From positions 1 to 27,633 of IMG/VR virus record IMGVR_UViG_3300025083_000170: DNA of 27,633 nucleotides; one strand, 5' to 3'. The DNA is from a virus. Under the pieces are notes generated by a model that made no database searches, was not told the origin of the DNA, and saw only the letters and a program-made list of their open reading frames with translations. The first letter of the stretch is position 1. Every line of letters starts with the position of its first letter. Both the position numbers and the translations under genes were made by a program. Below are positions 3,910-27,633 of the stretch, in pieces.

Positions 3910-3914
3910 GAGTA

Positions 3915-4106
3915 ATGCAACAGAAGTCTAATCTCCACAAGTCAAGAATAACGCACATCAATTTACTGATGAAGGAGATACACGACTCTACCAATACCAT
4001 ATACGAATGCCTTATTGATAGAGAGCATAAGCAATCAAAGGCTGAGATAAAGCGTTTAATAAAAAAGCTCTCATCGGTTTTAGAATCTTTACAGGATGAC
4101 ATCTAA
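3915..4106 (+). CDS. Hypothetical small helical protein (63 aa)
   Basis: A short, highly charged, apparently all-helical protein (for example IHDSTNTIYECLID and SKAEIKRLIKKLSSVLESL), which may form a small helical hairpin. No known family is recognised. It begins 5 bases after the previous stop and overlaps the HNH gene by 11 bases. Operon position and the lack of another frame covering this interval support coding, but the evidence is weaker than for its neighbours. Confidence 0.62.
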   Translation: MQQKSNLHKSRITHINLLMKEIHDSTNTIYECLIDREHKQSKAEIKRLIKKLSSVLESLQDDI

Positions 4107-4888: not shown

Positions 4889-4967
4889 AAAACCTGACAT
4901 AAAAGAGTTTGTCTTTGCGGCAGTAGTTAGTGCAACAATTATTTACACTATATGTTATTTTATATAG
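4875..4967 (+). CDS. Candidate 30-aa single-pass membrane peptide
   Basis: A short frame starting at an ATG 14 bases before the stop of the preceding gene encodes a 30-residue peptide. It has a charged N terminus (MYDSEKPDIKE) followed by an uninterrupted hydrophobic segment of about 19 residues (FVFAAVVSATIIYTICYFI) reaching the C terminus. This is the shape of a one-helix membrane protein with a cytoplasmic N terminus. The overlapping start copies the coupling style of the rest of the operon. It is the last gene before the convergent terminator. A role as a small membrane effector, regulator or holin-like factor is possible but unsupported; the frame could also be fortuitous. Confidence 0.5.
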   Translation: MYDSEKPDIKEFVFAAVVSATIIYTICYFI

Positions 4968-5033
4968 AAAGTATTGTTATATTTGCTATGACTATTGTGC
5001 TAAATAATTGAGTGTTACTTGCTCGGTTGTATT
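4968..5033 (+). ncRNA. Possible short transcript between promoter-like site and terminator
   Basis: The gap between the two convergent modules has no convincing protein-coding frame. A TATATTTG element at 4978-4985 matches the Bacteroidota -7 consensus TAnnTTTG and points right; a perfect terminator hairpin lies at 5034-5068. If the site is active, a transcript of roughly 75 nt starting near 4991 would be made. No -33 TTTG is visible at the proper spacing, so this is speculative. The simpler view is that the gap is the 3' untranslated region of the + operon. Confidence 0.22.
4978..4985 (+). promoter_or_regulatory. Candidate Bacteroidota -7 promoter element
   Basis: TATATTTG matches TAnnTTTG, the -7 element used by the primary sigma factor of Bacteroidota. 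No clear TTTG is found about 19-22 bases upstream. The only gene-like product downstream on this strand would be the short transcript ending at the 5034-5068 terminator. Chance occurrence in AT-rich DNA is possible. Confidence 0.25.
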
Positions 5034-5068
5034 GGAGAGTCTGTTCGAACAGACTCTCCTTTTTTTTT
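5034..5068 (+). terminator. Strong Rho-independent terminator at convergent junction
   Basis: A perfect 26-bp palindrome (5034-5059; halves GGAGAGTCTGTTC and GAACAGACTCTCC) folds into an 11-bp stem with a UCGA loop. It is followed at once by nine T residues (5060-5068). This is a textbook terminator for the + strand replication operon. On the - strand the hairpin also forms but lacks a downstream T-tract. The stop codon of the leftward 2460-aa gene (TAA at 5069-5067) is embedded in the T-tract, so the two modules meet with no wasted space. Confidence 0.92.
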
Positions 5069-8000: not shown

Positions 8001-11000
8001 TCTTTTTAGTATACGTTGAGCTTGACTGTTAGTGATGTTTCCATTCTTAACTAGCTTACCTACCTCGGCTGCTAAGTTCTTCTCAGCCTCAATGATAAAC
8101 TTCTTCATATCCTTACCACCTCTTATAGCGTCTTTAATACCTTGTATAATACCATCAGCAGCAGATAATGTTACTTGGTCTGATTTTTTTATACCCAATA
8201 TTCTTTTTACAGAAGGAGATGTCTTTTCTTTTGCTCCAAGTTTTTTTCTTAAATCTCTTACAGCGGTTTCTTTCTGTATGTCGGTAGCTGCTTTGTAAGC
8301 GTCTGTAGTTTTTAGTACAGCTACAGCACTATCAATCTTAGCTTGAAAACTCTTACCTCTCTTGCCTGTCTTTTCGTACTTACTTACTAAATCGGTAATG
8401 ATGTCAAACATCTTCATACCACCCTTAACGGTGGTCTCAATCTTAGAGCCTTTGATTTTTTTATTAGCCTCCTTAACCTCAGCCATTGCTTCGGTTATAG
8501 ACTTAGCGTCTAAACCTCTTTGCTTTAATGTAAATTCTATTTGCTTATCACTCATACCAAGAGCTAATGCTTCTTTGATTGTAGCCTTAACATCTCTACC
8601 TACCTCGAACCTAGCCTTAGATGATTGAGCTTCAGTCTTTGCGTCAAACTTAGTCTTAGATTTTGCATCTAAAGGTTTACCACCAAACAAGTCAGCAAGA
8701 CCTGTGTTAATAAATTCGTCAAGTGTTAAGTTTTCTATATCCTTCATCTTTAAATCTTCAGATGTAGTAAACTTCTCTTGAATATATTTAAAGGTAGCGT
8801 TCATCCACTCCTTAAACTTAGATTGTTGAGCAGCATTAGCAATAGTCTCACCTTTAGTAGCCATAAGTTCTACTAAGGCTTCCTCTCTAGCCAACTTAGT
8901 ATCACCGTACTTTTCAATCGCAGCTTTTAAGGCATCAGTACCTTCAACTAACTTTAAACCACGAGCCAAAAGAGCTGTACCTTTTTTACCTGAAGCATCT
9001 GAACGTAAGAAATCAGTCCATATATGACCGAACTCGTGTATTGGCGTAGCTAAGGAATCAAAAGCAGGGTTTATAAATATCTTACCATCCTTAGTTAAAC
9101 CAAGAATAGTTTTGCCATTAGACTCTTGAGTTCTAACGCCCGGTTGGTCTAGTATAGCATCAAACTCAACCTGACTTGTTGCTACATTAACCGATGGGAA
9201 GGCAAACTTTAATTTACCTATAAGTATGTCAAGGTTTGACTGCTTCGTTTTAGCAGCGTCAGATTGAAAAACCTTATCATTAAAGAAAGACCCCCCAACT
9301 TGCTGTGTTGCAAAGTCTTTAGTTGGGAACTTCCCTGTTTTTTCTCTCTTAAAAACTCTACTAGCTTTAGCTCTCCAAGTTGAGAATACATCAATACCGT
9401 GTTTTGGTTTAGAGATTAAAGCTATCGCTTTACCTTTAGGTCCGAAGCCATAGTTGTCGTGATTTACTTTTGTTACACCGCCTTTATCCGTAACATCAAT
9501 ACCAACAACAGCCACAATATCTCCGTGCTCTCCCTTCATCATTGAAGGTTCTCCGATTGCTTTGTATATGTTATCAGCAAAGAAAGCGTCTGTATTAAAC
9601 TTAGGATTCCCTTCAGCTAAAGATTTTATTACAGCCCTACTATTTGTTTTAGCCCCCGGTGGATATATCAATGATTCAAATAATAACTTTCTCTCGTCAA
9701 GATTTAGGGTGTTCATATCACCCTTAGCTCTTTGGTTTGCTTGTTTAACAACTAAGTCAGTTAACTGACCTAGGTTTTTAATCTTATTCTTATTAATAAA
9801 TTCCTTCAGTTTAATCGCTGAAGCAACTTTCTTTTTACCTACCGTAGATTTTTGAGAGGCATTCATTGCTGCGTCTAAAACAGATTGCAAATCTGCTAAA
9901 GCCTTTACTTGATTCTTTTTTGGTGCAGCCTTTATTGCAGGGCTTACATATCTAAATATAGCTTCATTAGAATTAATGGCACTATCAGACATTCTAGCTA
10001 TAGCCATAGGTACGTGACCTTGAGGTAGCTTTCCGTCAGCCCATAGCTTGTCAAACAACACTTTATTTTTTTCATATAATTTTACAGCGTTGTCAAATTG
10101 AGTTTTAGCACCATCTTTATTCACACCCGCCCAAGCGGCTTCTGTATTCTTACCTAGTATATTAAACATTAAACCCCCATCAACATCCATATTGTTCCCT
10201 TGAGCATCTTTTACTGTACCGGAAGCGAGGATGTCTGACATACCTGTTAGCATAGGTATACCATCAAAGAAGTCAATAGGTTTAATTAAATCGTTCTCAC
10301 TTTTAACACCTATAAAGTCTAAGACTTTTCGTGAAATCTTTTTAATCGAGTTACTTTCTTTTATTGGATTAACTTCATAATCCCTAGAAGCTCCTGATGC
10401 TTCAAACTCAATCTCATTCTTGTCCATCTTGTTCATCTCCTCAGTAATAGAAGATGTTTCTTGGTCTTGAGTTTCTAATCCATCTAATCTAAACCTAGGT
10501 TTACCCTCTACCCCCGTTTCGACATCAGGTTCTTGAACTTCTTGTGTAGTCTCTTTGGTAAGTTCGCTGACTTCGGCGTCTCCCTCTCCCACTGTTTGGC
10601 TATCTCCGGTTTGTTCTTGTACATCCACCGTCTCTGTGCTTGGCTCTTGAATGGCATCTGCTTGTTCTTTTAAAAGTTGTTCTTTCTTTGATTGTATCTG
10701 TTCTGCAGTTGGGTTTACTACACCTTCTTTATTAAGAGCTTCTACTGCAAACTCTTCAGTCACTATATTAGTTGTTGTGCTAACATCGTCACCATCAACT
10801 ATTGTCTCAGTTTCTCTAGCTTCACCTTCTGTAATAGGATTCTCCTGAAGGGATTTAATCTTAGACTTTATCTCTGATGATTTATCTTTAGCAAATTGAG
10901 TATCATTACCTTTTAAACCATCTAACTCAACCTGAAGCTCTGTTATTGCGTTTAATGTAGGTTCATTAATACTAGAGTCTACCTTTAAAATATCATTCTT

Positions 11001-12449
11001 TATAGTAGCCTCCTTAAACTTCTCGTCATAAATTGCTTGAAGTTCAGAATCGTTCTCTATATTAATATCTGCTTTAAGTAATTGCTCGGGAGTTGACTCT
11101 CGTAAAAACTTAGCCATCATAGGCCCCGACACCTTAGCGTCATTACCCGTACCATTAATCTTGTACTTAGGAGACTTATATAAACCATATCCTACGGATA
11201 TTGGAGCTGTAGCTGTACCTGCCACACCTTCAAATAAAATCTCTGCCACGTCCATCTCTTGACCTGCAGCTACCCTACCTGCTATCTCACCTACAGAACC
11301 ACCTACAGCTTCAGTTGCCCCACCGGCTGCTGAAGCTAATAATTTTCTACCCGTAGACTTAGCTACAGAGGTTGTTAATTTACTCGCTACACCACCAAAC
11401 GCTGCGTCTACAGCTCCAATAGTTAAACCTCTAGCTACAGCTTTAAATCTAATATCGTCCATCATCTCTTCGTCCTGAAGAACTTCACGGATATTTTCAT
11501 TAGTCATTGGCTTATCACCAAGCTGTTCTTGAAGTAGCTCTGAGTACGTAAGACCTGCTTCTAGAGCTGTACCTGCACCACCCATAGCTCCCGCTATAGC
11601 TCCTGCTCCAACACCAAAAGGTGTAAGTGTAGCTGACCCTGCAACAGCTCCTGCACCCGCACCTGTGGCTGCACCCGCTAATACTGCAGGCGTTAGCATA
11701 GCACTAACCGAGGATACGAATAGTTGTGGTATAACAGTTGGGTTAGCGGCAACGCCTTTTATAAAACCAAGGACACCACCACCATCTTTTTGATATATTT
11801 TTTGAAAGTCACGCATTTCATCAGATTCACCTGCGTCCTGCATTCTTTTTTGTGCAGCTATAAAGTCTTGTATATCTTCATCGCTTGCGTCAGCGCCCTT
11901 TGCAAATAATTCAAGTGACTCATCTACTGAACCACCCTGTGCTTGACCTGCTGCACCGGCTCTATATAAGTCACCAAATAAATCTGTAACTACATTCTTA
12001 CCGAATGCTCTTTCAAGGGCTGTATCTTTCTCGCCTTGCTCAAACTCAGCATCTGAGAAATCTAAATTAATGCTTTGAGGTTCAGGAGCAAAGTCTGTTG
12101 GAACAGACTCATCTACAATTGAAACCTCTTGCTCTTGTATTGATTGAGGGCTAGCCTCTTGTATTGGAACTGAAACATCCGATGAGATAACTTCTTCCTG
12201 CTCTGTTGGTGTAATGGATTCCGTAACGTCCTCTTGAACAATAGAAACGGATTCGTCTTTTTTTTTTACTCCAACAAGAGTAGAGAAATCTTCTATAGAT
12301 TTTCCGTATCCTTTTTCTTTAAATAAAGTATACGAATCATTTAAAGCATCAGGATTTGTATTTATAAGATTCACGTATTCATCAAAAGATTTAGTATAAC
12401 CTTTCTGTTTAAATAACTCGTAAGAATCTTTTAGTGCTTGCTCGTTCAT
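5067..12449 (-). CDS. Giant internal virion / ejection-type polyvalent protein (2460 aa)
   Basis: The largest gene, last in the virion operon and directly after two T7 gp14/gp15-like genes, so it takes the place of gp16. Order of parts: two N-terminal repeats (residues 5-33 and 35-61); a Glu/Ser-rich linker (about 62-140); Gly/Ala-rich hydrophobic stretches that could insert into membranes (about 225-300 and 335-425); an acidic linker (about 525-645); a zincin-type motif H1138-E-F-G-H1142 with a candidate third ligand in EEALVE (1190-1194); long lysine-rich helical regions; a hydrophobic segment near 2211-2232; and an Arg/Gly-rich C-terminal tail (about 2435-2460). No lytic transglycosylase motif was seen. 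Proteins of this type are packed in the capsid and injected with the DNA, forming a channel or modifying the host. The zincin motif suggests a metallopeptidase domain. The role is inferred from order and composition. Confidence 0.85.
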   Translation of the reverse strand: MNEQALKDSYELFKQKGYTKSFDEYVNLINTNPDALNDSYTLFKEKGYGKSIEDFSTLVGVKKKDESVSIVQEDVTESITPTEQEEVISSDVSVPIQEASPQSIQEQEVSIVDESVPTDFAPEPQSINLDFSDAEFEQGEKDTALERAFGKNVVTDLFGDLYRAGAAGQAQGGSVDESLELFAKGADASDEDIQDFIAAQKRMQDAGESDEMRDFQKIYQKDGGGVLGFIKGVAANPTVIPQLFVSSVSAMLTPAVLAGAATGAGAGAVAGSATLTPFGVGAGAIAGAMGGAGTALEAGLTYSELLQEQLGDKPMTNENIREVLQDEEMMDDIRFKAVARGLTIGAVDAAFGGVASKLTTSVAKSTGRKLLASAAGGATEAVGGSVGEIAGRVAAGQEMDVAEILFEGVAGTATAPISVGYGLYKSPKYKINGTGNDAKVSGPMMAKFLRESTPEQLLKADINIENDSELQAIYDEKFKEATIKNDILKVDSSINEPTLNAITELQVELDGLKGNDTQFAKDKSSEIKSKIKSLQENPITEGEARETETIVDGDDVSTTTNIVTEEFAVEALNKEGVVNPTAEQIQSKKEQLLKEQADAIQEPSTETVDVQEQTGDSQTVGEGDAEVSELTKETTQEVQEPDVETGVEGKPRFRLDGLETQDQETSSITEEMNKMDKNEIEFEASGASRDYEVNPIKESNSIKKISRKVLDFIGVKSENDLIKPIDFFDGIPMLTGMSDILASGTVKDAQGNNMDVDGGLMFNILGKNTEAAWAGVNKDGAKTQFDNAVKLYEKNKVLFDKLWADGKLPQGHVPMAIARMSDSAINSNEAIFRYVSPAIKAAPKKNQVKALADLQSVLDAAMNASQKSTVGKKKVASAIKLKEFINKNKIKNLGQLTDLVVKQANQRAKGDMNTLNLDERKLLFESLIYPPGAKTNSRAVIKSLAEGNPKFNTDAFFADNIYKAIGEPSMMKGEHGDIVAVVGIDVTDKGGVTKVNHDNYGFGPKGKAIALISKPKHGIDVFSTWRAKASRVFKREKTGKFPTKDFATQQVGGSFFNDKVFQSDAAKTKQSNLDILIGKLKFAFPSVNVATSQVEFDAILDQPGVRTQESNGKTILGLTKDGKIFINPAFDSLATPIHEFGHIWTDFLRSDASGKKGTALLARGLKLVEGTDALKAAIEKYGDTKLAREEALVELMATKGETIANAAQQSKFKEWMNATFKYIQEKFTTSEDLKMKDIENLTLDEFINTGLADLFGGKPLDAKSKTKFDAKTEAQSSKARFEVGRDVKATIKEALALGMSDKQIEFTLKQRGLDAKSITEAMAEVKEANKKIKGSKIETTVKGGMKMFDIITDLVSKYEKTGKRGKSFQAKIDSAVAVLKTTDAYKAATDIQKETAVRDLRKKLGAKEKTSPSVKRILGIKKSDQVTLSAADGIIQGIKDAIRGGKDMKKFIIEAEKNLAAEVGKLVKNGNITNSQAQRILKRFAATDVTSEAQVDRFVDYMENVYNKSEGKLKKSIVKDIVGKVNDAVKKSKSFDPETAAFFNAMRKVLAMAIDNKTAAQIKDKLFSDIDTLLEQDFDSLTPTQKQKVYAYESLDSIKDINNMSLEQLESLLKDVQEGKKGGRSALQLRKEAFRAEIKETKKQADKDINDGYSELYNEDGTLKGPTQLKKEQRDIESKIWRKGLGKAISDYVGVFDFKSFSKSMQAFKNSLTHLGTLTNGLDKSGTFFTDNIYKPLNRAVSNYTKGLQVKRKKFDSIAKTITGINSYADIKNKLYTGVHTLSGIKEKGKDIGTMDFSANELMRILALSKNEVQRKKLLAQGFTDAKLKEIEAILGKEVVEFVDKTVEYLSTEYYNETNEVYRDVNDSNLSYIDNYFPTKTHQEKTNSKMLEDGDFRAIQDAQFADALKDRDNVEGEIDLNANFTEVLDNHIDSMERFKAYAPTVKKLAAIMNFPAVKTLLEQAGLTKAVKNAINMDVNPGSYQSALEPSILDRLQTKYTSFALALKLMQIPKQATSFINAYEDYSYRPKGQKKIPGLDAVMFMVDAANLIVNFRSNVKRAWEMSPMLQERLLQGLEGDVHSLESGGLIYKESGKPPIGKIRQALKTAAAAPTVIGDVMGVMGYMINYNRDIANGMSKAEAMAKFEDYNATQQTRRGTEKIPLQMAKSPYTRAFTMFGSTLFLQMNKVMQSYTNITRAISGKKPLSSKDVRSLFLNLGVANVLFAVAANAARMLKGDEEDREEVLQKMGEAMVGMNQIYKIPMLGTVVEEISNKAKGVGDKPVSDVVNPLGGVYQKIKKISKGVEKGDYAKVIGNTTRGLLEFAAGVQFDPFIGLARTATGDFNEENVYDMLGISSSYRPKGKSAKQIKEDKLGQYDNETDMKRYNKKLWNKTFGPESEGYLERQAIKDAKSAERKAKREEKDSKYNYTKPTDRNKSKIRGRGGASGRSSSRGRGRGSVR
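12267..12437 (-). repeat. Two tandem ~28-residue repeats at N terminus of the 2460-aa protein
   Basis: Residues 5-33 and 35-61 align closely around ALKDSYELFKQKGYTKSFDE and ALNDSYTLFKEKGYGKSIED: conserved A-L-x-D-S-Y-x-L-F-K-x-K-G-Y-x-K-S-x-x-(D/E). The repeat unit is helical and amphipathic. It may be a docking or packaging module that holds the protein to another virion component; this is inference. Confidence 0.85.
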
Positions 12450-15452: not shown

Positions 15453-15857
15453 TTATAATACTTTAATCATTTCTTTGTTGTATGAATCACCTGTCGTATA
15501 ACCCTGCTGCTCATAAACACCAATAAGTCCGTTATGCTTTATAAGGGCATAAGCGAACTTATTATCTAGGTTCTTTGCAACTGATGTTAATGTCTGTATC
15601 AATATTGATAACGCTTCTTTACGTGATTCTTTATACTCCTTGTTAGATATAATCCAATCTACCCACGCTACTTTTGAGTTGGTGTTATATAAAAAGCCTG
15701 CGCATACAGGTGTATCACCGTCCCAAACCATTATACCACCTTGACCATCTTGAGGTAAGAAATCTCTGCTAGGAGCTTCCCATCCCCAATCCTTCCACCA
15801 TCCCTTAAGGATGTTGTCGTAATCTTCGTGCTGTAGTGGAGTTGTATTGAATTTCAT
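15453..15857 (-). CDS. GNAT-like N-acetyltransferase (134 aa)
   Basis: A compact protein with the GNAT strand-helix layout. It has a start helix (HEDYDNILKGWW), strands GGIMVWDGDTPVCAGFLY and VAWVDWIISN, the helix SRKEALSILIQTLTSVAKN, and a C-terminal strand/turn (LIGVYEQQGYTTGDSYN). The usual acetyl-CoA loop Q/R-x-x-G-x-G/A is not obvious; the matching place reads KEYKESRKEAL, so binding may differ or be weak. Similar short GNAT-like proteins sit in tail or internal-protein modules of many marine phages, where they may modify virion or host proteins; the target is unknown. A TATCTTTG promoter-like element ends 7 bases before the ATG. Confidence 0.78.
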   Translation of the reverse strand: MKFNTTPLQHEDYDNILKGWWKDWGWEAPSRDFLPQDGQGGIMVWDGDTPVCAGFLYNTNSKVAWVDWIISNKEYKESRKEALSILIQTLTSVAKNLDNKFAYALIKHNGLIGVYEQQGYTTGDSYNKEMIKVL

Positions 15858-15879: not shown

Positions 15880-16677
15880 TTAAGGATAACTTTTCATTAA
15901 CTCAGACTCAATAGCAAAAAGCTCACTAGCTGTGGTTACCGTGCTAGGAAGCGTAAGAGTTATCTCAGTATAATGCCCCATCACACCAAGCGATTCAGCC
16001 TGTGCATTTTTAAAGTACATAACAAAATCACTTGGACTTGGGAGTGTACCTCCTGTATTGTTTATTCTAATATAGTTAGTGATTATAGTATCACCATTAC
16101 TCACTGCGGTAACAACTCCGGCAAAAGAAAGGGTAGAGCCCGAACCTGCATATATTGAATCACCTACAGATAATTGGCTGTTAATGTCAACAGAAACAGC
16201 AAATCTTAAATCAGTTACTGAACCTCCACCGGCTAAAGAATTTACCTCACCAACACCACCATTAGCTCGTGACTTAAAGTCAGACTCAGTTAATGCACCG
16301 CCTGAAGCTGCACCATTAGTCCGAACGTAAGCAAAGTAGTTACCTTCTTTTTTTACAAACGATGTGCTATCTATAGAGCTTGACTGAGCCGCTACATCTG
16401 TAAGTAGTTCAGCAGACCACGCGTCAGTAGACTCAAGATTAAGCGTTTTAAAGAGCTTATTATCTAGAGGCATCTCATTTATCACGGTCTTTATAGTAGA
16501 CGTATACGTAGTGCCGTAATAGCTATTACGAGTCTCATTGGTATTATGCCTATATAGCTGACCATTCTTAAAGCTATAAAAGAAATTATTCATCCCTATC
16601 ATATACTCAGGATTGTAGCTATAGAATGAAGGGAATCCTTTAGAACCTTCGCTGTATGTAAGTGTATAGTTTGGCAT
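15880..16677 (-). CDS. Phage tail structural protein (265 aa)
   Basis: A structural protein of a family that I recognise from Bacteroidota and marine podoviruses. The N terminus has the pattern GFPSFYSYNPEYMIGMNNFF, then SFKNGQLYRHNTN and STIKTVINEMPLDNKLFKTL, and later GNYFAYVR. The middle to C-terminal part is beta-rich with Gly/Ser loops (LRFAVSVDINSQLSVGDSIY). No enzymatic motif or membrane segment is visible. It lies between the cysteine-containing tail protein and the acetyltransferase, downstream of the tail hub gene, so it is probably a tail-tip, nozzle or fibre-attachment component. The family pattern is clear to me; the exact place in the tail is inferred. A likely start context is AAATAAAGAT before the ATG, without Shine-Dalgarno. 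Confidence 0.75.
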   Translation of the reverse strand: MPNYTLTYSEGSKGFPSFYSYNPEYMIGMNNFFYSFKNGQLYRHNTNETRNSYYGTTYTSTIKTVINEMPLDNKLFKTLNLESTDAWSAELLTDVAAQSSSIDSTSFVKKEGNYFAYVRTNGAASGGALTESDFKSRANGGVGEVNSLAGGGSVTDLRFAVSVDINSQLSVGDSIYAGSGSTLSFAGVVTAVSNGDTIITNYIRINNTGGTLPSPSDFVMYFKNAQAESLGVMGHYTEITLTLPSTVTTASELFAIESELMKSYP

Positions 16678-17739: not shown

Positions 17740-20700
17740 TTAACAATCACAATTTACAATCTCTATAGTAATGTCTGTAGCACCTACAGGAGTGTAAGTT
17801 GGATATATACTTGAACACGTTACAATAGATTGATTAGTAAAAAGTTCACTAGCCCCATCTGAGACCAATACTTCTATAGTGCTAGTACCGTTGTTGGTAA
17901 TTCTATAAGTGGTATCTACAGCAGCGTTACAAGCACACTCACAGCAAACAGCCTCTAATCCTGTTGATGTAATATCCGAGTCATAACATAACAAAGTTTC
18001 ATTTGCTGCTCTTAAATCCCAAACTAAATACAATATCTTATTACTGCCCGTTATAGTAGGTAAATCAAACGTATCAACAAAAGTAGGGTTTACACCTGTA
18101 GGGGTAGCTGAGTTAGCCGCAGGAATAGCATTTAATAAGTTACGTAGCCCTGTCTGATTGTTTGCATAATCTATTGGGGTTACAAGGAACTTAAATTTAT
18201 CAAGCCTATCGCCTGTATTTCTAACATTATATGTATCACTTGAATACTTAAAAGTAGACATATCCATAGTGGCACCGCTAAATGGTATAATTCCGTGACC
18301 TTGGAATCCATCATATATTACATATGAAGATGCAAAAGGTGGTTGAGCATTTTGTACAAAATTAGACACCTGAGTAGGACCTGACACCAAACCTTCAACA
18401 CCCGAACCAACTCTGTATGTCCAACGATAATGTATTGACTTACCTTCATCTTCATTATTCGTAAGAACAATAGCTCTAACCTGAAGTGCATTAGCCGTTG
18501 GGCATATAGATGTCACTGACACAACAGGTTTATCTTCAGCATTAACTTTAGATATAGTGATTGTAAGCTCGTTAGGGAATATTAAATTCTTTACAAAAGT
18601 AGGGGAATAAGTAGATGGAACTACCTCAGAAAATTGCTGAACTCCGTTCCAAGTCCCTGTAACATTAACCGATGCGGTAGTACTAAACTGAGTTGTTACC
18701 GTACCAATATCATCAGATAAATTAATAACATAAGATATTGAGTCCTCAGTATCAAGAGTGATTGTATTTGAAGAACCACAAGGTATAGATTCAATTTTTT
18801 GAGGTAATAATACATCGTTGCTAGATAGAACGTACTCATTCATATAGGGGTCGTAGCCACCTAATTTTTGAGTATTAAAACTATCTTGAAATAAATCTCT
18901 AAACCATCCACGCATACCATACTCCGATATAACATTTAACTGCTCGTTAGAAGCACTGCTTCCTTTAAGCTGTATTAAAGAACCTCTCTTAGCATCAGTA
19001 AAAAACTTATCAACTCCATATGAAACGAAACTCTCAGTGTTGTCACTAATACCAAAGTCTTCAATTCTAGCTATCTGCTTACCTAACACCTCAGGCACTG
19101 ACGTAAGAACATCTCCCCCTGATGCGTCTGACAATAAGTTCTTGCCCGATAGAACGTACGAAATCTTATCCTCTTGCAATGCAAGTATGTCAGTCTCACG
19201 AGCAAACATTTTATTGATAGGCCCAAAAGAAGCCTCAAGTGGCTTAAAGTTTAGCAGCCCTAAGTTAAATTCGTTAAGTCTATTTAAGTTGGTTTCATCG
19301 TTATATAAGCCACTATATGTTATATCAGAACTTCTATGAGCTCTCTTGTAATCCTGTTCTGAAACAGTTGTTACACGATTACCTATACTCATCTCCTTCC
19401 CCTTAATAGAGTCTCTAATCTTGTAGCTCTCAGCACCATTACCAAATGAATAGCAGTTAGCAAAATTCAAATTAAATATACCATCAACAGATGAGGTTTG
19501 ATTGGTATCTCCTGTAATGTTAGACTCGTGAAAACCTAATGCAGATACAGGGTATGAGTCCTGACCTTCATACCAAACATCAGGTAAAGACTCTGATGGC
19601 TCAGTTTCAAATATAACAGTACCGTCAGATAATATAATCTTAAAAGATGCTTTTATCTTAGCCCTACCGCTTGAACTATAGCTACTTGATGGACAAGCAT
19701 CAAACCCTCTAATTAAAAACTTTATTTCATTAAGAGTGGCAGAGTCAGTACTTTTAAACCAAGCAAAGTTTACTTTGGTATTACCTGATGTAGTAGTACC
19801 ATTCCTCCAATTCGTAATATTTGTTTGTTCTTGAGTATCGTAATCAAAAGAAATTCCGCTACTAGTATTTGCAGATGAGAACGTAGAAGCTATATTGTCA
19901 CCGTTAAACCAATCAATAATATCATCATAGTTATCTGAAGCTGTAAATGTTCTATTAAATTTAAAGTAAAGATAATCACAAGATTGAGTAAAGTTAGTAG
20001 ACGCATTCCTATATAAATTAAGATTCATCTCTATTGAAGAACCTTGAGGTATAGCGTAATTACTAAACGTATTATTTGCTATACTCTCTTCAAAGTTTTT
20101 ATAATCTAAAAAAGTAGGTGCTGCGTTAACTGAAGATGGTGATTCTTGCGAACCGGGATTTACATAACTATTCTCCTCAAGACTTGTAGAAAAATTAGAA
20201 GGTTGTATTTTCATATACGTACCTGCAGGTAGCGTTACATTAGGGTCGGTTGTTATTATATCTCCTTCAGCTAAAGTAACCTTCTCAAGAACGGTTGCGT
20301 ATAAGCAACTATCTGAAGGGCCTGATGCTGACCTTTTTACAATATATCTATCACCCTCTTCAACCTTAGCTATGTTTTCTCCTTCTAATTTAAAATAGGT
20401 AAAACTTGTACCCGCTTCCTCAAAGTATAATTGAGAGTATATAGTCTCGTAATCTTCACCATCAGGTTTTATTACAAACTTAAATCTTTTAGCAAAATCA
20501 GGAGCTATTTGAGATGTAGGCATTGTAAGTTTAATAGTATTTTTATTTATACTATTAGCACACGGTATGTATATATTGTTGTTATTACTAACTAAAGCTG
20601 TTGAAGCTCTATTAAACTCATCCATATAAACAATACCAACTTCATATCCTCTATTGCTATGTAAACTTAAAGAGCTGCCTATTTCTGAATACGAGAAGTC

Positions 20701-22410
20701 AATGTTTGTTAAATTAAAAAGCTCGTAAACTGTATTGGATGTTGATGGAGCCGAAGTATCTGTAGTATAACCCATAGTTATAACAGATAAATTTAAAACA
20801 AATGAACCTGTGGATGCAGTAACTAATATAGGTTCTCCTGCCGTAGCTATACCGCTTTCAAATTTAGTGTATGAACCTATTTCAGTTAGTAATGAATCGT
20901 TTATTATATCTGTAAAAGTAGAACCTGTCCCTGAAAGAGCTACTGTTTTAATATTACTTGCCGTACCCATTTTCTCTTGAAAATCAATACTATTAACTAA
21001 CTCAGATACGCTATTAAAATCTTGTAAAAGAGTATAATTAAACGCAACTGTAGTAGGAGGGTTTATACTTGTGGGAATAGGGGCACTCGGAGTTGAAGGC
21101 TCCCAATCATCGTGTTCAATTGTAAAGCTAAGTGTAAGATTACCTCCTGCTTTTAATTCTGTTATTTCACTAAGATTTACTTCTACTCTACCACTAGACT
21201 CTTCTGCGTTTGCTAAAATATATTCTTGCCCGTCTAAAGGAACATCAAAAGTAGTTATTGGTGTAAGCCCAAACGACTTACTAATTGACTCAATATAATA
21301 ATCAAATTTAGTTTTTACACCATCACGCTTTAAATCATACCCGTCAACATAATTACCATACATAAGTCTATTTCCCATAAGGGTCTGACTTTTAGCTAAT
21401 AAAGGTACATTATCGTAAAGTCTTAATATCTCACCACTTGAAAGTATCGTAAATATTTTACTGTCTTCAAAAGTATATTGTTGGTCTGTATTATTAGGAA
21501 GCGTAGTTGCATCTATAGATTCAATTACTTTTATAATATTAGATGATGATTCTTTAAATAATATCTCTACCTCAACAACCTCACTACCTCCTGTGTTATA
21601 CGTAAGAGTAGCTCCGTTTTTTGAGTTGACCATCCCTTCATTTAAAAAGTTATCTGAAGATAGTGAAAATGGTTGAGGAACAAAACTAGGGTTTGTGAAT
21701 TGAGACGTGGCTGAGTACTCGTTGTTTTTATATTTATACCTATAAGAAAAACAGATAAACCTTTCTTGCATAAACGTATCTAAAGAACCTGTAACTGTAT
21801 TTATAACAGATGGAGCATATGACGGTGGTTTAACTACAACAAGAATATCATTGTAGTGAAAGTTATCCACCCCACCAATACTCGCAGGGTAAGCATACGA
21901 ATCGTTTACATTAATTTTTCTAGGAGGGTTGTAGTTATCTGTAAAAAATAATAAATCACCAATTTTATTTACATTAGATATAAGATGTGATGGACTAAAG
22001 TTTAAGGTAGTATTAGTCGTGTCTTCAGAGTTCTTAAAACTTTTTACGTGGTATCTTAAGTTAAATGTTTTAGTGTTAAATGATACTATTAAATCAGCCT
22101 TACCTGTAGATGTCGATGTAGAATTGCTGTCGTGTATAAACCAATATATAGTTTCATTTACACCATCTTCAAAAGCTCCTATACATCGAGCGTTTGAACT
22201 AAGATTATAAGTGGTAGAACCGAAAATACCTAGATTTACTGAAGTTAAAATAGTGTTACCCTTTGAGTTTTCTACAGAACCAATCTCCGAATCCTCAGTA
22301 GAACCAAGGCGTACGTTCATTGCATCAATATACTGACCGTTAGGCACAAGTCTCTCGTCAAGCGACTTGTTCATCTTACCCGCTATAAAATTTCTTTTAC
22401 TATTAGCCAT
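17740..22410 (-). CDS. Tail hub/stabilisation protein (P22 gp10-like), 1556 aa
   Basis: The N terminus (residues about 7-50: NFIAGKMNKSLDERLVPNGQ, then YIDAMNVRLG and VENSKGN) is a pattern I recognise from the tail stabilisation/hub proteins of crAss-like and other Bacteroidota podoviruses, likened to P22 gp10. What follows is long and beta-rich, consistent with a beta-propeller and added beta-sandwich domains; residues about 1210-1310 look Ig-like. The C terminus holds a striking cysteine run (VCCECACN) followed by a further domain that ends in NCDC. In the virion it would form the tail tube end and carry fibres. It is much longer than P22 gp10 (about 470 aa), so most of it is added domains. 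The start is 1 base after the stop of the connector gene. Confidence 0.82.
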   Translation of the reverse strand: MANSKRNFIAGKMNKSLDERLVPNGQYIDAMNVRLGSTEDSEIGSVENSKGNTILTSVNLGIFGSTTYNLSSNARCIGAFEDGVNETIYWFIHDSNSTSTSTGKADLIVSFNTKTFNLRYHVKSFKNSEDTTNTTLNFSPSHLISNVNKIGDLLFFTDNYNPPRKINVNDSYAYPASIGGVDNFHYNDILVVVKPPSYAPSVINTVTGSLDTFMQERFICFSYRYKYKNNEYSATSQFTNPSFVPQPFSLSSDNFLNEGMVNSKNGATLTYNTGGSEVVEVEILFKESSSNIIKVIESIDATTLPNNTDQQYTFEDSKIFTILSSGEILRLYDNVPLLAKSQTLMGNRLMYGNYVDGYDLKRDGVKTKFDYYIESISKSFGLTPITTFDVPLDGQEYILANAEESSGRVEVNLSEITELKAGGNLTLSFTIEHDDWEPSTPSAPIPTSINPPTTVAFNYTLLQDFNSVSELVNSIDFQEKMGTASNIKTVALSGTGSTFTDIINDSLLTEIGSYTKFESGIATAGEPILVTASTGSFVLNLSVITMGYTTDTSAPSTSNTVYELFNLTNIDFSYSEIGSSLSLHSNRGYEVGIVYMDEFNRASTALVSNNNNIYIPCANSINKNTIKLTMPTSQIAPDFAKRFKFVIKPDGEDYETIYSQLYFEEAGTSFTYFKLEGENIAKVEEGDRYIVKRSASGPSDSCLYATVLEKVTLAEGDIITTDPNVTLPAGTYMKIQPSNFSTSLEENSYVNPGSQESPSSVNAAPTFLDYKNFEESIANNTFSNYAIPQGSSIEMNLNLYRNASTNFTQSCDYLYFKFNRTFTASDNYDDIIDWFNGDNIASTFSSANTSSGISFDYDTQEQTNITNWRNGTTTSGNTKVNFAWFKSTDSATLNEIKFLIRGFDACPSSSYSSSGRAKIKASFKIILSDGTVIFETEPSESLPDVWYEGQDSYPVSALGFHESNITGDTNQTSSVDGIFNLNFANCYSFGNGAESYKIRDSIKGKEMSIGNRVTTVSEQDYKRAHRSSDITYSGLYNDETNLNRLNEFNLGLLNFKPLEASFGPINKMFARETDILALQEDKISYVLSGKNLLSDASGGDVLTSVPEVLGKQIARIEDFGISDNTESFVSYGVDKFFTDAKRGSLIQLKGSSASNEQLNVISEYGMRGWFRDLFQDSFNTQKLGGYDPYMNEYVLSSNDVLLPQKIESIPCGSSNTITLDTEDSISYVINLSDDIGTVTTQFSTTASVNVTGTWNGVQQFSEVVPSTYSPTFVKNLIFPNELTITISKVNAEDKPVVSVTSICPTANALQVRAIVLTNNEDEGKSIHYRWTYRVGSGVEGLVSGPTQVSNFVQNAQPPFASSYVIYDGFQGHGIIPFSGATMDMSTFKYSSDTYNVRNTGDRLDKFKFLVTPIDYANNQTGLRNLLNAIPAANSATPTGVNPTFVDTFDLPTITGSNKILYLVWDLRAANETLLCYDSDITSTGLEAVCCECACNAAVDTTYRITNNGTSTIEVLVSDGASELFTNQSIVTCSSIYPTYTPVGATDITIEIVNCDC

Positions 22411-22411
22411 A

Positions 22412-23335
22412 CTACTTAATCCACTTGTTTTGTCCTCTTAGATTCATAAGCAATCTACCCGGATGTATGTTACTGATTCTTATCTTTGCATTACGTAGAA
22501 GCGATGACTTCTTTTTTCTTGCTCTATTTACAATATACTCCTGAACGCCTAACTTACTATCTAAGATAGAGTATTGGATGTATGCGTACACGTACTCCTC
22601 AAACAATTTATTAACTGTTATAAGTGAGTTGTCACCACCCTCCATACCATCAGATACATACTCTACTATAACACTCTTACCTGACATCGTAGAATCAAAA
22701 TTAATAACCCCTGCCTTCGAATCTATTCTAAAGGTAGGGTTAGCATTAGCCGTCTCCGTATTAAGACCGTAGCGAGCTCCTATTGCAAAATCAAAGTACC
22801 ACATACCATCACAGCAATAACCTTCTGCGTTGTTGTATGCGCTATTCTCATTCAAGTATATCGTCTTCTTAGTACCTGTAATTCTATCAACGTCAATTGG
22901 TGAAAACTCAGGCTTTAATACACTGCCCGATTCGTCAAATAATATCTTAGCATTATTATCTTGCAAGTATGCTTGTGCTGATGTTAACTGAATATTCTCA
23001 GTCATTGGATATAGTACACCATTCTCATACAGAGAAACACGAACCCAATTAACATAGTCTGAAGGCAACACGAATCGTACTGCATCATTCACTGTAAGTT
23101 GAAGGGTTTTAATCTCCTTAAACGCATCGTAGTTAAGCTCCTGCACTGCACGCTTAGCGTGAAATAGAATCTTAAATCGGTCCTCGTTATTCACTAGAGA
23201 GTGGTTTCCTTGATACATCAACATAAAGTTGTTGACTATATCCTTTAGACTAACGTATTGGTATGAACCCCAATTAGCATCCTCAGGATTTGCTCCTGAA
23301 TTTTCGTAGTATTGATACTGAGATATATATGCCAT
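22412..23335 (-). CDS. Head-tail connector/ring protein (307 aa)
   Basis: A structural protein with a pattern that I recognise from crAss-like and related Bacteroidota phages: an N terminus with YQYYENSGANPEDANWGSYQ and a following YVSLKDIVNNFMLMYQGNHS, then LFHAKRAVQELNYDAFKEIK and VLPSDYVNWVRVSLY. The mix of helices and strands suits a ring or tail-tube protein between portal and tail hub. It shares a one-base stop/start overlap (TAATG) with the 237-aa gene upstream. No membrane or catalytic motif. The family pattern is confident; its exact place among the ring proteins is not known from sequence alone. Confidence 0.8.
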   Translation of the reverse strand: MAYISQYQYYENSGANPEDANWGSYQYVSLKDIVNNFMLMYQGNHSLVNNEDRFKILFHAKRAVQELNYDAFKEIKTLQLTVNDAVRFVLPSDYVNWVRVSLYENGVLYPMTENIQLTSAQAYLQDNNAKILFDESGSVLKPEFSPIDVDRITGTKKTIYLNENSAYNNAEGYCCDGMWYFDFAIGARYGLNTETANANPTFRIDSKAGVINFDSTMSGKSVIVEYVSDGMEGGDNSLITVNKLFEEYVYAYIQYSILDSKLGVQEYIVNRARKKKSSLLRNAKIRISNIHPGRLLMNLRGQNKWIK

Positions 23336-24048
23336 TATTGTTGTAAGTTATTTTGTTGTTCTTCTCCCTGTGCGTACTGCACCACCATCGCTTCACGTAT
23401 CTCAACACCTGCGTACTGACATATCTTTACAACCAAATCATTTAGGTTGTCAAGCGGTAGCTCAAAGTCTTGATAATCACTTGCAGATGGATTGAATACA
23501 GGACCTTGCGCTTGTAAAGCTATACTATAAGTCCATTTAGGTGTTAAAGGGTATCTAACGTACTGAGCTGATATATCGTTAGCACCATTAAATGTACTAG
23601 GATAAATTGTCATTACAGAGCCTTCAGTCGTGTATGCAGGAAAATCAACGCTAGGTGCTGTAAGTAATGAAGCGTTAAGCATTGTAATCTTTGACTGACT
23701 AACCCTTTCAGCTTCTCCTTTAAACGCACCACCACTTGAACAAAGTACCTTATTGATTAAGTAATAATCTGAAGGCATTGTGTATGTATTAGTAGCAACT
23801 TGAACTAACGAAGCTGTCTTTGAAAATAAATCAATAGTCTCTTGTATTCCTTTAGATAAGTTAGCATACTCAGTTCCTGACCTACGTGCATTCTCTAAGT
23901 TAAGCTGTGTGTTGTATTGGTAAAAACAATCCTCAAATATCTCTAACTGTGCTTGTTGTGCATACAGGTTAAAGTCTGATGGGGAAAGGTATCCATAGTT
24001 ATTCTTATTAAGTATAGCAAGGACTGTATTTCTTACTGCATTTATCAT
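23335..24048 (-). CDS. Tail tubular / head-tail ring protein (P22 gp4-like type), 237 aa
   Basis: The N terminus (INAVRNTVLAILNKNNYGYL, then SPSDFNLYAQQAQLEIFEDC) matches a family found directly before the ring protein in crAss-like and relative phages, often annotated as a tail tubular or connector protein. Strands such as NTYTMPSDYYLINKVL and a C-terminal helical part ending in EQQNNLQQ follow. It is the first gene after a - strand terminator and has its own promoter-like TATATTTG just upstream, so it may begin a separate tail transcription unit. The ATG start is preceded by an A/T-rich leader (GATTTTAAG) and no Shine-Dalgarno. Confidence 0.8.
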   Translation of the reverse strand: MINAVRNTVLAILNKNNYGYLSPSDFNLYAQQAQLEIFEDCFYQYNTQLNLENARRSGTEYANLSKGIQETIDLFSKTASLVQVATNTYTMPSDYYLINKVLCSSGGAFKGEAERVSQSKITMLNASLLTAPSVDFPAYTTEGSVMTIYPSTFNGANDISAQYVRYPLTPKWTYSIALQAQGPVFNPSASDYQDFELPLDNLNDLVVKICQYAGVEIREAMVVQYAQGEEQQNNLQQ

Positions 24049-24063
24049 CTTAAAATCTTTTCA

Positions 24064-24071
24064 CAAATATA
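24064..24071 (-). promoter_or_regulatory. Candidate -7 promoter element for the tail module
   Basis: On the - strand TATATTTG fits TAnnTTTG of Bacteroidota promoters. It ends 15 bases before the ATG at 24048 and follows a terminator with only GCG between the T-tract and the element. No -33 TTTG at normal spacing was found. The terminator-promoter order is a natural boundary between head and tail transcription units. Confidence 0.42.
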
Positions 24072-24074
24072 CGC

Positions 24075-24105
24075 AAAAAAAAAGAGCCCTATAAAAGAGC
24101 TCTTT
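24075..24105 (-). terminator. Rho-independent terminator after the beta-sandwich structural genes
   Basis: Read on the - strand, AAAGAGC (24105-24099) pairs with GCTCTTT (24087-24081), with an 11-base loop, and the run of nine T residues (24083-24075) gives the uridine tract. It lies 22 bases after the stop of the 499-aa gene. It separates the head-surface genes from the connector and tail genes. Leak-through is likely, giving graded expression. Confidence 0.8.
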
Positions 24106-24127
24106 AGTAGTTTGTTTGCTTGCTGTA

Positions 24128-25627
24128 TTAGCTTGCAACTATATCAGTTATAAGCACCGGAGGAGTTATCTCTAAGACCTCAGCAGTATTATTGCTATTC
24201 GCTAAACGAATGATACTGTCTTGGAAGAAGTTTCTCATCTGCACTCTTGAAGATGCGGATGCACCTGCGTAAGTTATAGTAAGATTGTCAGCTCCATCAG
24301 TAAGTCCGTTGTTTATTACAACAGTATTGTCTGTTGGTGCACTTACCATTGATACATTATCAACTCCGATAAGCTTTGGTTGGTTCACAACCTCTTGAAC
24401 TGATGCAGAGTCAAGGGTTATTTCATAATCCTCACTATCGTTAAGGGTACTAAGAACAAAAACCGTTTGGTATGATGTCGTTTTAAACCTAAACTCATTC
24501 TCACCGAGCTTTAAATCTTTAAGTTCAATAAAGCTTGTACCCGTCCATACTCTAAAGTTTATACCCTCAGTAAAAGAGAGTACATTAAATTTTAACAAAA
24601 CTTCAGTACCTGAAGAGTATGCGCTAGTATTACCATATACTTTAGTATCCTGCCCGGTCATAGTCAGGTTGCTATTACTAAAGGTAATTCCTTCTTGAGC
24701 TTCACCCTGTGGCCTTTCCCACCCATAAGCAAACTGATTGGTTGCTTGTAATGATATACCTGCGTAGTTTGTTTGTTTAGAACCAAGTCTATCGCCTGCG
24801 TAAAATGAAATAAGTGTGTTATTAGAGAGGGCAGTAAAAACAAAATCAACCGAGCCGCCTGTAGTATCAACATTAAATGAAACTACTCCTATAGAATTAT
24901 TAGCTAAATCACCTGTAACGCTGTCAATCTTAAGCCTGTACTCAGCACCTGCAATTGTAGGAACTACTAAAATAACAGCTTGATTTGTTGCACTAGATAC
25001 ACACTCTAGAATATTTGACTCAACATTTGCAGATGATAAAGTAGAAGATAGCCATTGTGAAGACACAGTAGTTACAGCAGTACCGTCAGCTATAGCTGTA
25101 AAATTACCGTTACTTACACGTTCAACAATACCTGTTTCTTTAACAGACACATTATCAAACTCCATATATTCTCCTGATACAACTGTTCCATTTTTTATTA
25201 ATAAATACAAGTCTTGAGTTGCAGTTGCAGTAAAAATGTAACTATGAATCCCATTTGTTTGAAACTTAGTTCCACCCAAAACATCACCTGTATTAAATGT
25301 TGTTCCTAAAAAAAGTTGAGATTGTGCATTTGAAGACGTTCCTTGAAAACTTTCATATTTTATCTCATACGTTTTACCTGAAACTACTGATAACGTAGGT
25401 GCTCCATTAATAGATGTAAATCCTGCAGCAGTTCCATCTCCATTTGTTACACGGATTTTATCATTAACAATACTTAATTCTACTGCAGGGTCATTGCCGG
25501 CCCAACCCGATAACCCTGATGAGAAATCACCGTTTGTTACCAATTCAGGACCGTACTCCTCAAAAGAACCATTACTCAGGACCTCAGGTCCCAAGTATGA
25601 TTTATTTAGTTTTAAAAAATTTGCCAT
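24128..25627 (-). CDS. Virion structural protein with three CBM-like beta-sandwich modules (499 aa)
   Basis: A short N-terminal part (residues 1-25) and a conserved-looking C-terminal core (about 417-499: LIGVDNVSMVSAPTDNTVVI, then GLTDGADNLTITYAGA, RNFFQDSIIRL) flank three modules at about 26-164, 168-296 and 300-413. The modules follow the plan of carbohydrate-binding families such as CBM4/9: an ELVTNGDFSSGLSGW-type opening, alternating strands, and an NVSVKE- or SASVQEV-type closing strand. Such domains on virions are used for weak binding to polysaccharides or cell-surface glycans. Its opening stretch is very similar to that of the neighbouring 492-aa protein, showing shared ancestry. Location on the capsid surface is inferred from the position between a head protein and the connector genes. 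It is followed by a terminator. Confidence 0.75.
   Translation of the reverse strand: MANFLKLNKSYLGPEVLSNGSFEEYGPELVTNGDFSSGLSGWAGNDPAVELSIVNDKIRVTNGDGTAAGFTSINGAPTLSVVSGKTYEIKYESFQGTSSNAQSQLFLGTTFNTGDVLGGTKFQTNGIHSYIFTATATQDLYLLIKNGTVVSGEYMEFDNVSVKETGIVERVSNGNFTAIADGTAVTTVSSQWLSSTLSSANVESNILECVSSATNQAVILVVPTIAGAEYRLKIDSVTGDLANNSIGVVSFNVDTTGGSVDFVFTALSNNTLISFYAGDRLGSKQTNYAGISLQATNQFAYGWERPQGEAQEGITFSNSNLTMTGQDTKVYGNTSAYSSGTEVLLKFNVLSFTEGINFRVWTGTSFIELKDLKLGENEFRFKTTSYQTVFVLSTLNDSEDYEITLDSASVQEVVNQPKLIGVDNVSMVSAPTDNTVVINNGLTDGADNLTITYAGASASSRVQMRNFFQDSIIRLANSNNTAEVLEITPPVLITDIVAS
25521..25570 (-). repeat. DNA-level repeat shared with 26851-26900 (copy 2)
   Basis: My gap-free alignment of 25521-25570 with 26851-26900 gives 36 identical bases of 50. 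Both encode the module opening (F-E-E-x-G-x-E-L-V-T-N-G-D-F-S). This is a trace of duplication or recombination between the two neighbouring structural genes. Confidence 0.7.
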
Positions 25628-25628
25628 C

Positions 25629-27107
25629 TTATGAAAGTGTTATTGCTATTGTTACCAATAGTTGATTATATTTATGGTCTCTAAACTCATTAAGAGGAAT
25701 GTCTAACCTACTAGCTGTTGCTGACTGAGAATTTAATCTCTGAACAAACCTCTCAATCACGTCAGCCACAAAGTACGTGTTGACCGCATCGTTAAGTTGT
25801 GTTAGAGTTACCTTGTCAGCCTGAGGACCTGCAGCAAACCAAAATGATGATTGGATAGGTACACTCGTAGCTTCGTCATACTCAGACATAATGTAGTTAT
25901 CTATCCGAAGAATCTGATTCCCTCTTGTATCACCATTAGGTGCAAATATAAAAAACGCATCTCCTGCATCTGAAAGAATATCGTTAGATAATAACAACGT
26001 GTTATTGTCAAGCACTTGCAAAACAACAGCCTCGGTATCATCGTCAGAGTTAAACACTACATCACCAACCTTACATTGCTTTAAGAAATCACCACTTACT
26101 ACCTGTAGATAGTTGTACTGAACCTCTTTAACTGTAATACCACTTAATGTAAATGTTAAAGCGTTAGTCCCTGAAACGAATCTTAAATCAGGAGATGTGC
26201 TTTGGTCTTCATCATAAACAGAGTTAAACAAGTTACTACCATTAGTACTCCTAAACTTTAAGTCAGTTCCAACCTGACCAAATGCCCCTGTACTACTAAT
26301 ACCTGCAGTGTTTGCTTGACTCATATTAGATAAGGTAAATCCTACTTGATATGACTTACCGTCTACAAGCTGTGAAGTTACATTAGGTACTAAATAGTCA
26401 GTACTAGTAGCCACACCTCTAGAAGCTGACGAACCATTTAAAGTCCAACCATTTCCTGCGGTAAAGTTTGCAGGAATATAATCACTAGAAACTATCTCCT
26501 TACCTAAAACATACGGTACTTCTTTTACGGATACATTCGAAATAGAACCTGCAAAAGTGCCATCAGATGCTCTTAAATTTAATATATCATAATTTCCACT
26601 AGCATTAACAACTTCTGTATATGTACCATCTACACTTCTTGCAGGTGTATCTTTAACTCCATCTCCACCTAATCTAATTAAAAATGAACCTGCTGAAACA
26701 TCTAAAGTATATGTAATAATATAACTTTTACCACTTACAAAAGAGACATCTTGAGATGCACTTGTACTCCCACTTTGGGCAGTTCTAGTTATTCTATTGT
26801 TTACTTCATCTATATCCCAACCTGCACCCTCTGTCCAATCAGAATCAGTAGAAAAATCCCCATTCGTAACCAATTCAGCACCTTTTTCTTCAAAGTTTCC
26901 GTTCTGTATTAATTCATTACCTAATATTGGCGATTTACTACCCGGTATTGTTTGGTCAAAATAACCATTTTTAATAAGACTTTCTCCAATGAAATTATTA
27001 TTGGTTGCTTCTTCTTGTTTACCACTCAAAGATTTAGCAATAGTACCTAATTGTAAAGATGTTTCTGCCCATCTTCTTTGTTCTTCTGTGAATTGTATAG
27101 CTTCCAT
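25629..27107 (-). CDS. Virion structural protein with two CBM-like beta-sandwich modules (492 aa)
   Basis: An N-terminal helical part (residues 1-40: QFTEEQRRWAETSLQLGTIA) and a C-terminal core (about 330-492, for example VSGDFLKQCKVGDVVFNSDD and VLQVLDNNTLLLSND) enclose two beta-sandwich modules at about 76-196 and 201-329. The first opens with ELVTNGDFSTDSDW and ends with NVSVKEV; the second ends with ITVKEV. This layout, a small core protein with inserted glycan-binding-like modules, is mirrored in the next gene, which starts one base after this stop. A repeated opening (NELIQNGNFEEKG and AELVTNGDF) suggests module gain by duplication. Placement after the head protein suggests a capsid decoration or head-fibre role. 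The module family is inferred from pattern; binding has to be tested. Confidence 0.75.
   Translation of the reverse strand: MEAIQFTEEQRRWAETSLQLGTIAKSLSGKQEEATNNNFIGESLIKNGYFDQTIPGSKSPILGNELIQNGNFEEKGAELVTNGDFSTDSDWTEGAGWDIDEVNNRITRTAQSGSTSASQDVSFVSGKSYIITYTLDVSAGSFLIRLGGDGVKDTPARSVDGTYTEVVNASGNYDILNLRASDGTFAGSISNVSVKEVPYVLGKEIVSSDYIPANFTAGNGWTLNGSSASRGVATSTDYLVPNVTSQLVDGKSYQVGFTLSNMSQANTAGISSTGAFGQVGTDLKFRSTNGSNLFNSVYDEDQSTSPDLRFVSGTNALTFTLSGITVKEVQYNYLQVVSGDFLKQCKVGDVVFNSDDDTEAVVLQVLDNNTLLLSNDILSDAGDAFFIFAPNGDTRGNQILRIDNYIMSEYDEATSVPIQSSFWFAAGPQADKVTLTQLNDAVNTYFVADVIERFVQRLNSQSATASRLDIPLNEFRDHKYNQLLVTIAITLS
26851..26900 (-). repeat. DNA-level repeat shared with 25521-25570 (copy 1)
   Basis: Partner of the repeat at 25521-25570; same orientation, same encoded motif, 36 of 50 bases identical in a gap-free alignment. 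Confidence 0.7.
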
Positions 27108-27110
27108 ATC

Positions 27111-27633
27111 TTAGTTTACTTTACCTCTATTTGGCATATCTATTGTTCGTGTATTTGCTTTTCTCCAACCTTTAGCATTCCTTAATCCAGCACCTTTTGG
27201 TTCTTGATTTGTTACATCTTTATCGTTATCCAAGCCCTTGTTTGGTAAAAACTTACCTTTTACTCTTTTTCTGAACCAAACTTGTCTAACGAATTTATGA
27301 TGGCAGTAACAACCACCTTTGTACAACCAAATAGAATATTTCGATTTACCTCTTTCAGCAAATTCTCCATTTATTCCATCAGCTGACATTTCGTTTATAT
27401 CCTCAAATCTATATGATACACCCATCTTTGCATTGGCTACCATATTTCTACAAAATAACCGGCTATTTTTAGATAAGTTTTCTGAGTATCTGTATCTTAT
27501 TTTATAAAGCCCTTTATCTATTTTAGACTTTGAATCCGGGTCTGCATATCGCTTAAAAAAGTTGTATGGTGTATTATGTGTTTCAGCTTCTAATTCCGGG
27601 TCTAGTACATCTGTTTCTTCTAACAATTCCCAT
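27111..27633 (-). CDS. C-terminal part of a head-associated structural protein (MuF-like?), 5' truncated
   Basis: The frame stays open to the right edge of the window (residues W-E precede the first possible start, TTG at 27626), so this is the C-terminal 173 or so residues of a longer protein. It has a pattern that I know from head proteins of Bacteroidota phages: YKIRYRYSENLSKNSRLFCR, then SYRFEDINEMSADGIN, then SIWLYKGGCYCHHKFVRQVW. The Cys...GG-x-x-C-H-H arrangement recalls the C terminus of MuF-type minor head proteins, where Cys and His residues close the domain, but I cannot prove this here. The last 50 residues are basic and rich in Asn and Gly. It lies three bases before the 492-aa gene and probably belongs to the head operon with the portal and capsid genes beyond the window. 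Confidence 0.65.
   Translation of the reverse strand, partial: WELLEETDVLDPELEAETHNTPYNFFKRYADPDSKSKIDKGLYKIRYRYSENLSKNSRLFCRNMVANAKMGVSYRFEDINEMSADGINGEFAERGKSKYSIWLYKGGCYCHHKFVRQVWFRKRVKGKFLPNKGLDNDKDVTNQEPKGAGLRNAKGWRKANTRTIDMPNRGKVN

Follow-up and report, generated by a model that had tools for sequence, protein, structure and literature searches.

Two neighbouring genes in a viral genome fragment each appeared to encode a small protein core enlarged by tandem modules resembling carbohydrate-binding modules (CBMs), which raises the question whether both are real virion proteins and whether such modules could form an exchangeable glycan-binding coat on the phage head. The fragment, referred to here as the window, is 27.6 kb long (27,633 nucleotides; IMG/VR record IMGVR_UViG_3300025083_000170), and its virion genes resemble those of podoviruses of marine and brackish flavobacteria. 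Based on these genes, the named relatives are the Flavobacterium elemo phages, Maribacter phage Panino, Cellulophaga phages phi38:1 and phi19:3, and the uncultured phage ctfjg026. Two neighbouring virion structural proteins of 237 and 307 aa (22412-24048, minus strand; phrog_14543 and phrog_13977) served as anchors for finding relatives. The conserved gene order among these runs from terminase, portal, probable scaffold and probable capsid protein to a 250-aa protein, after which come a slot of variable content, a pair of ring-like proteins and a muzzle-like protein of 1500 aa. The phage that makes up most of the window, phage A, is a podovirus related to flavobacterial phages. It is also represented by a 59.8-kb contig that is independent of the window (L105/L137) and encodes portal, scaffold, capsid, 250-aa, 439-aa, 499-aa and ring proteins; positions 1-12400 of the window are collinear with this contig at 100%. 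As the probable major capsid protein of a relative gave no sequence match among solved structures, the label capsid protein rests on the PHROG virion-structural annotation and on position.

Some further features were observed among the virion genes. The muzzle is apparently split into two genes separated by a variable gene for a 345-aa protein: one encodes the muzzle-like 1556-aa protein (17740-22410), the other a 265-aa protein (15880-16677) that matches the C-terminal domain of the crassvirus muzzle (2.6e-15). A 134-aa protein is encoded amid the virion genes (15453-15857); an NCBIfam search with it was without a match, and at this position ctfjg026 has a gene with the annotation N-acetyltransferase.

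The 499-aa protein (24128-25627, minus strand) is 100% identical in L105/L137. The initial annotation had described it as a short N-terminal part, three beta-sandwich modules and a C-terminal core, and this layout, with three beta-rich modules, stands unchanged in the independent contig. Residues 1-16 (MANFLKLNKSYLG...; 25580-25627, minus strand) form the N-terminal part of the core and also start the module-free homologues, as illustrated by the 100-aa homologues of the 499 core, which begin MAKFLKF. They are followed by module 1 (residues 24-165; 25133-25558), module 2 (residues 166-296; 24740-25132), which is homologous to modules of both genes, and module 3 (residues 297-412; 24392-24739), a beta-rich module of a separate sequence type that has no sequence link to the other modules and matches only itself at E<1e-3. 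The C-terminal core (residues 413-499; 24131-24391; this and the three modules on the minus strand) is homologous to stand-alone proteins of 94-101 aa.

The neighbouring 492-aa open reading frame (25629-27107, minus strand) is different. The two genes had been taken as a pair of virion proteins, and both reading frames are indeed present, but the 492-aa one is a chimera with the N-terminal part of one phage, phage B, and the C-terminal part of phage A, so that the pair holds only with the corresponding 439-aa protein of phage A. Residues 1 to approximately 154 correspond to phage B (contigs L091-L093), and the sequence after approximately residue 194 corresponds to phage A (L105). At the nucleotide level, positions 21000-26524 of the window show zero differences from phage A, and positions 26645-27633 (minus strand) are phage B sequence that comprises the end of a portal-fusion gene and the start of a 609-aa spike-base protein, 99.6% identical to L091-L093. 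Within this segment, 27111-27632 (minus strand) encodes the C-terminus of the portal-fusion protein, which is not from phage A. When the segment was compared with contig 3300025084_000023, the module part alone matched (231 bp, 94%); the segment as a whole is not phage A sequence. Sequence comparison places the join in a 120-bp tract that is identical in both phages (26525-26644, minus strand). In sample 3300006990 a phage A contig (L106) starts at 26644 and a phage B contig (L092) ends at 26525, which are the edges of this tract, and in sample 3300006925 a phage A contig (L155) ends three bases past it. The gene that phage A truly has in this place encodes 439 aa and starts MAKYLGIPLQVASGTT.

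Because the contigs of both phages break at the tract edges in one sample, as at a shared repeat, the 492-aa protein most probably corresponds to no real gene of either phage and would result from an assembly mis-join in a module that the two share. A real recombinant, with the head and portal genes of phage B linked to the tail genes of phage A by recombination within the shared module, is very improbable. The 350-bp shared module with its 120-bp identical tract would be suitable homology for such an event, and a probable capsid gene precedes that of the portal in the left part of phage B; the idea that a real recombinant would be without a capsid gene was dropped for this reason. Against it stand the exact coincidence of both donor contig breaks with the tract edges, the absence of the junction from every other viral contig in the collection, and the origin of the phage B portal and the phage A ring proteins from unrelated systems.

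In the part that belongs to phage A, module 2 of the 492-aa frame (26121-26510, minus strand) is identical to L105 and matches the module profile at 2e-12, and the C-terminal core (25632-26096, minus strand) is homologous to module-free proteins of 180-181 aa found in seven contigs (L013, L014, L016, L132-L135). Modules 1 and 2 of the 499-aa protein and both modules of the 492-aa frame are related by sequence, with a best E-value of 1e-43 between a 499 and a 492 module of relatives. The initial annotation had assigned a common opening and a common closing strand to all modules. By direct reading, a full opening of the LVxNGxF type is present in three of the five (499 modules 1 and 2 and 492 module 1) and absent from 499 module 3 and 492 module 2, the latter opening EIVSSDYI, and the closing strand recurs only loosely (VSVKE, ISLQA, ASVQE, VSVKE, ITVKE). 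Truncated extra openings that lack a module body were also seen, namely EVLSNGSF at residues 15-22 of the 499-aa protein (25562-25585) and, in the phage B region, ESLIKNGYF and NELIQNGNF at residues 42-50 and 64-72 of the 492-aa frame (26892-26984); they are possible scars of module loss.

AlphaFold models were made of the 499-aa protein (mean pLDDT 75.5; model mba8f1fc89272) and, in place of the 492-aa frame, of the 439-aa protein of phage A (mean pLDDT 76.3). Module 1 of the 439-aa model gave a Z-score of 15.0 (rmsd 2.3 over 122 residues) to the hyaluronan-binding CBM 4d0q; for the same protein the scores were 14.7 against a porphyran-binding CBM and 12-14 against CBM16, CBM4, CBM22 and CBM29. 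Module 1 of the 499-aa model matched the CBM16 module 2zey (Z 12.6, rmsd 2.8, 123 residues), and its module 2, taken as residues 167-297, the C-terminal domain of 8ic1 (Z 12.2). On these predicted models the modules are of the CBM-type jelly-roll (galactose-binding-like fold), in agreement with the fold proposed earlier for both proteins. The match lists for the full-length models are filled by the modules and say nothing on the fold of the cores. Pfam CBM_4_9 (PF02018) had no match at E<=1 in the 499-aa and 492-aa proteins of the window, and sister proteins matched it at 1.2e-9 and 1.7e-5. As proteins that bind other ligands can have this fold as well, it is no proof of sugar binding. Weak matches to the phage modules were found in unrelated cultured phages, and some proteins of other phages that are predicted to be minor tail proteins or tail fibres contain similar modules.

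Comparison of the same two genes across related phages bore out the suggestion that modules are gained and lost while the cores stay. Members of the 492 family have a constant C-terminal core; those with no module measure 180-181 aa, those with one 297-310 aa, with two 439-461 aa and with three 562-606 aa. In the 499 family, cores that are 97-100% identical are accompanied by module 1 identities that fall to 22-36%. In some relatives the core is 98-99% identical to that of the window protein and module 1 only 28-35%, and L116/L117 share this module at 89%; module 3 of the window protein reaches 64% with L123, where the core is 77% identical, and 31-35% with relatives whose cores are 97-99% identical. 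At the level of sequence, these comparisons demonstrate the replacement of modules one at a time by recombination at module boundaries.

Core homologues without modules (94-181 aa) fill the same gene slot in other relatives. They begin with the same strand as the module-bearing proteins (MAKFL, MAKYLGIP), which places the modules after this first strand and before the remainder of the core. Among 59 distinct slot layouts, from loci that were chosen by similarity and are no census, 20 were empty, 25 held the core family only, 11 were module-bearing and three held other genes; one contig (L150) carries two 492-type genes and one 499-type gene. The presence or absence of modules needs only two changes on the tree of the neighbouring ring protein (48 rows). 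The module-bearing state as a whole thus turns over slowly, and the identity and number of the modules quickly.

Two other kinds of gene were observed around this slot. Proteins of three relatives (L056:2166-3386, L074:7985-9271 and L045:2-883) contain a type B sorting domain of the type IX secretion system (T9SS), with TIGR04131 scores of 42-48 bits that exceed the cut-off of 35. In L056 and L074 their genes occupy the slot between the 250-aa and ring protein genes; in the truncated L045 the gene immediately precedes that of the ring protein. The L056 and L074 proteins have a signal-peptide-like stretch near the N-terminus; such a phage gene may make use of the type IX secretion route of the host. 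Furthermore, L044:1604-2545 and L053:9050-9991 encode an enlarged ring protein R1 of 314 aa, which matches the 492 core at residues 125-182 with about 34% identity, as if a domain of a slot protein had moved into the ring protein.

The other contributor to the window, phage B, has a portal-fusion gene followed by the gene for the 609-aa protein, which starts MEAIQFTEEQ. Its portal is nearest to that of Nonlabens phages P12024L/S, and the ring protein of phage A was not found in longer relatives of phage B; judged by its genes, phage B is a different kind of phage and unrelated to phage A. The initial annotation had proposed a role on the capsid surface, and this is directly indicated for the phage B part, which belongs to a family of head-spike bases of gene transfer agents (GTAs). 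The 609-aa protein and a 94-aa protein of L093 match the spike base family RCAP_Rcc01079 (NF048002) at 33.0 and 46.2 bits, above the cut-off of 28, two proteins of L096 match it at 39.2 and 32.2 bits, and a related 85-aa base matches the solved base of the Rhodobacter GTA (RcGTA) at 4e-6. The design seen in the phage A slot recurs in phage B, which has a small module-free paralogue beside one in which modules are inserted behind a similar N-terminus. In six further contigs (L098, L165, L168, L176, L178, L182) an NF048002 spike-base gene lies directly before a long fibre with related CBM-type modules, and these neighbours are putative GTA-like head-spike pairs of various uncultured phages. The phage A cores are not members of this family: NF048002, like the rest of NCBIfam, had no match at E<=1 in the 499-aa protein, the 492-aa protein or the two module-free cores tested.

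Phages A and B nevertheless share one whole module, which corresponds to module 1 of the 492-aa frame (26525-26876, minus strand) and has 15 differences in 350 bp (95.7% identity over about 350 bp). The sharing is seen in un-joined contigs from several samples and is genuine, with unrelated flanks. Beyond these two phages, the best full-length viral match to this module has approximately 40% identity, with partial matches spanning 22-46 residues, and no close relative was found in bacterial genomes.

Where the phage A proteins sit on the virion has to be judged from their surroundings. Pfam, NCBIfam and PHROGs offered no convincing family for the phage A cores, a profile search against solved structures gave nothing convincing for them either, two module-free cores had no match in 50,697 phage records, and cultured phages held no detectable homologue. 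With neither known family nor structure nor cultured homologue, a head location for phage A rests on gene order, and together with the parallel of the phage B spike base this order suggests that the cores are attached to the head. It is rather unlikely that the two proteins are tail or adaptor proteins whose modules act in tail adsorption. Their slot lies directly upstream of the ring proteins, and the similar modules in other phages' proteins of predicted minor tail or tail fibre function would agree with such a role, but the slot may be empty or hold variable numbers of small paralogues, which fits dispensable decorations, and the related module of phage B sits in a capsid spike-base protein, as similar modules elsewhere follow spike-base genes. 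We consider it equally doubtful that the modules mainly serve as structural spacers or shields, for stability, dispersion or masking, and bind no sugar. Rapid divergence and swapping are typical of binding specificity, and the highest-scoring solved structures are CBMs that bind various polysaccharides. In favour of spacers, the modules diverge quickly with only the fold conserved, and T4 Hoc has been reported to aid particle dispersion (PMC10385173).

Swappable lectin-like modules on head-decoration proteins are the best reading, in which the capsid location in phage A and the binding of glycans are both inferred. In the account that we prefer, the slot between the probable capsid genes and the tail-ring genes of phage A holds a family of small proteins of about 95-180 aa, and in some lineages the small core is interrupted after its first strand by tandem CBM-type beta-sandwich modules. 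The small core would most likely bind the phage head, and the tandem modules would most likely project from it and hold the particle on the polysaccharide of hosts or algal particles, an ecological role that the modules presumably have. Recombination at module boundaries swaps one module at a time, even with the unrelated phage B. Taken as a whole, with small head-anchored cores, inserted and singly exchanged polysaccharide-holding modules and the 492-aa frame as an assembly join, this explanation is probable. More tentatively, unrelated marine flavophages may share a pool of single, precisely exchanged glycan-binding modules placed on unrelated capsid-decoration scaffolds, namely a GTA-type spike base of the capsid vertex in phage B and an undescribed core family in phage A. 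If so, lectins of the capsid surface would be mobile units whose evolution is not tied to the remaining virion parts. A complete adhesin-type module has moved recently between two unrelated phages and fits two different probable capsid scaffolds, which provides a system for testing how phages alter the surfaces to which their heads attach. The window is also a warning that, in collections built from metagenomes, shared modules can give rise to viral contigs and proteins of mixed origin.

Several known systems resemble these proteins in part. The predicted fold is that of the jelly-roll CBMs of families 4, 9, 16, 22 and 29, whereas the window's own modules lie outside the Pfam models and their glycan binding is presumed. 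The head fibres gp21 and gp29 of crAss001, a phage with related muzzle proteins, sit on capsid hexons and are expected to bind outside ligands (PMC10172136). However, they consist of an N-terminal anchor and one C-terminal domain, and no sequence match between them and the phage A proteins was found among solved structures. T4 Hoc and Hoc-like fibres have a conserved capsid-binding core and a variable number of beta-sandwich domains, and some phages have two such proteins (PMC10385173). The likeness to phage A is one of layout only, a conserved core carrying a string of variable beta-sandwich domains in differing number; the Hoc domains are Ig-like and precede a C-terminal core, whereas the CBM-type modules of phage A are inserted within an unrelated core, and no Ig-like or Hoc capsid-binding Pfam match was obtained.

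Another parallel is offered by the RcGTA head spike (base Rcc01079, fibre Rcc01080), in which a pentameric base on the capsid pentamers holds a fibre needed for binding to the host capsule (PMC7296036). The 609-aa and 94-aa proteins of phage B fall into this base family, with the difference that the modules of phage B are inserted in the base protein itself, and with the phage A cores standing outside the family. A glycan-binding coat on the head is a reasonable hypothesis. In a survey of domain shuffling (PMC10684548), tail fibres and spikes were the only proteins reported to show recent sharing across phage families. As in that survey, a near-identical fragment is common here to otherwise unrelated proteins, but the proteins involved are the capsid spike-base protein of phage B and the probable decoration protein of phage A, so that the head-side exchange between the two phages would be unusual, yet of no new kind.
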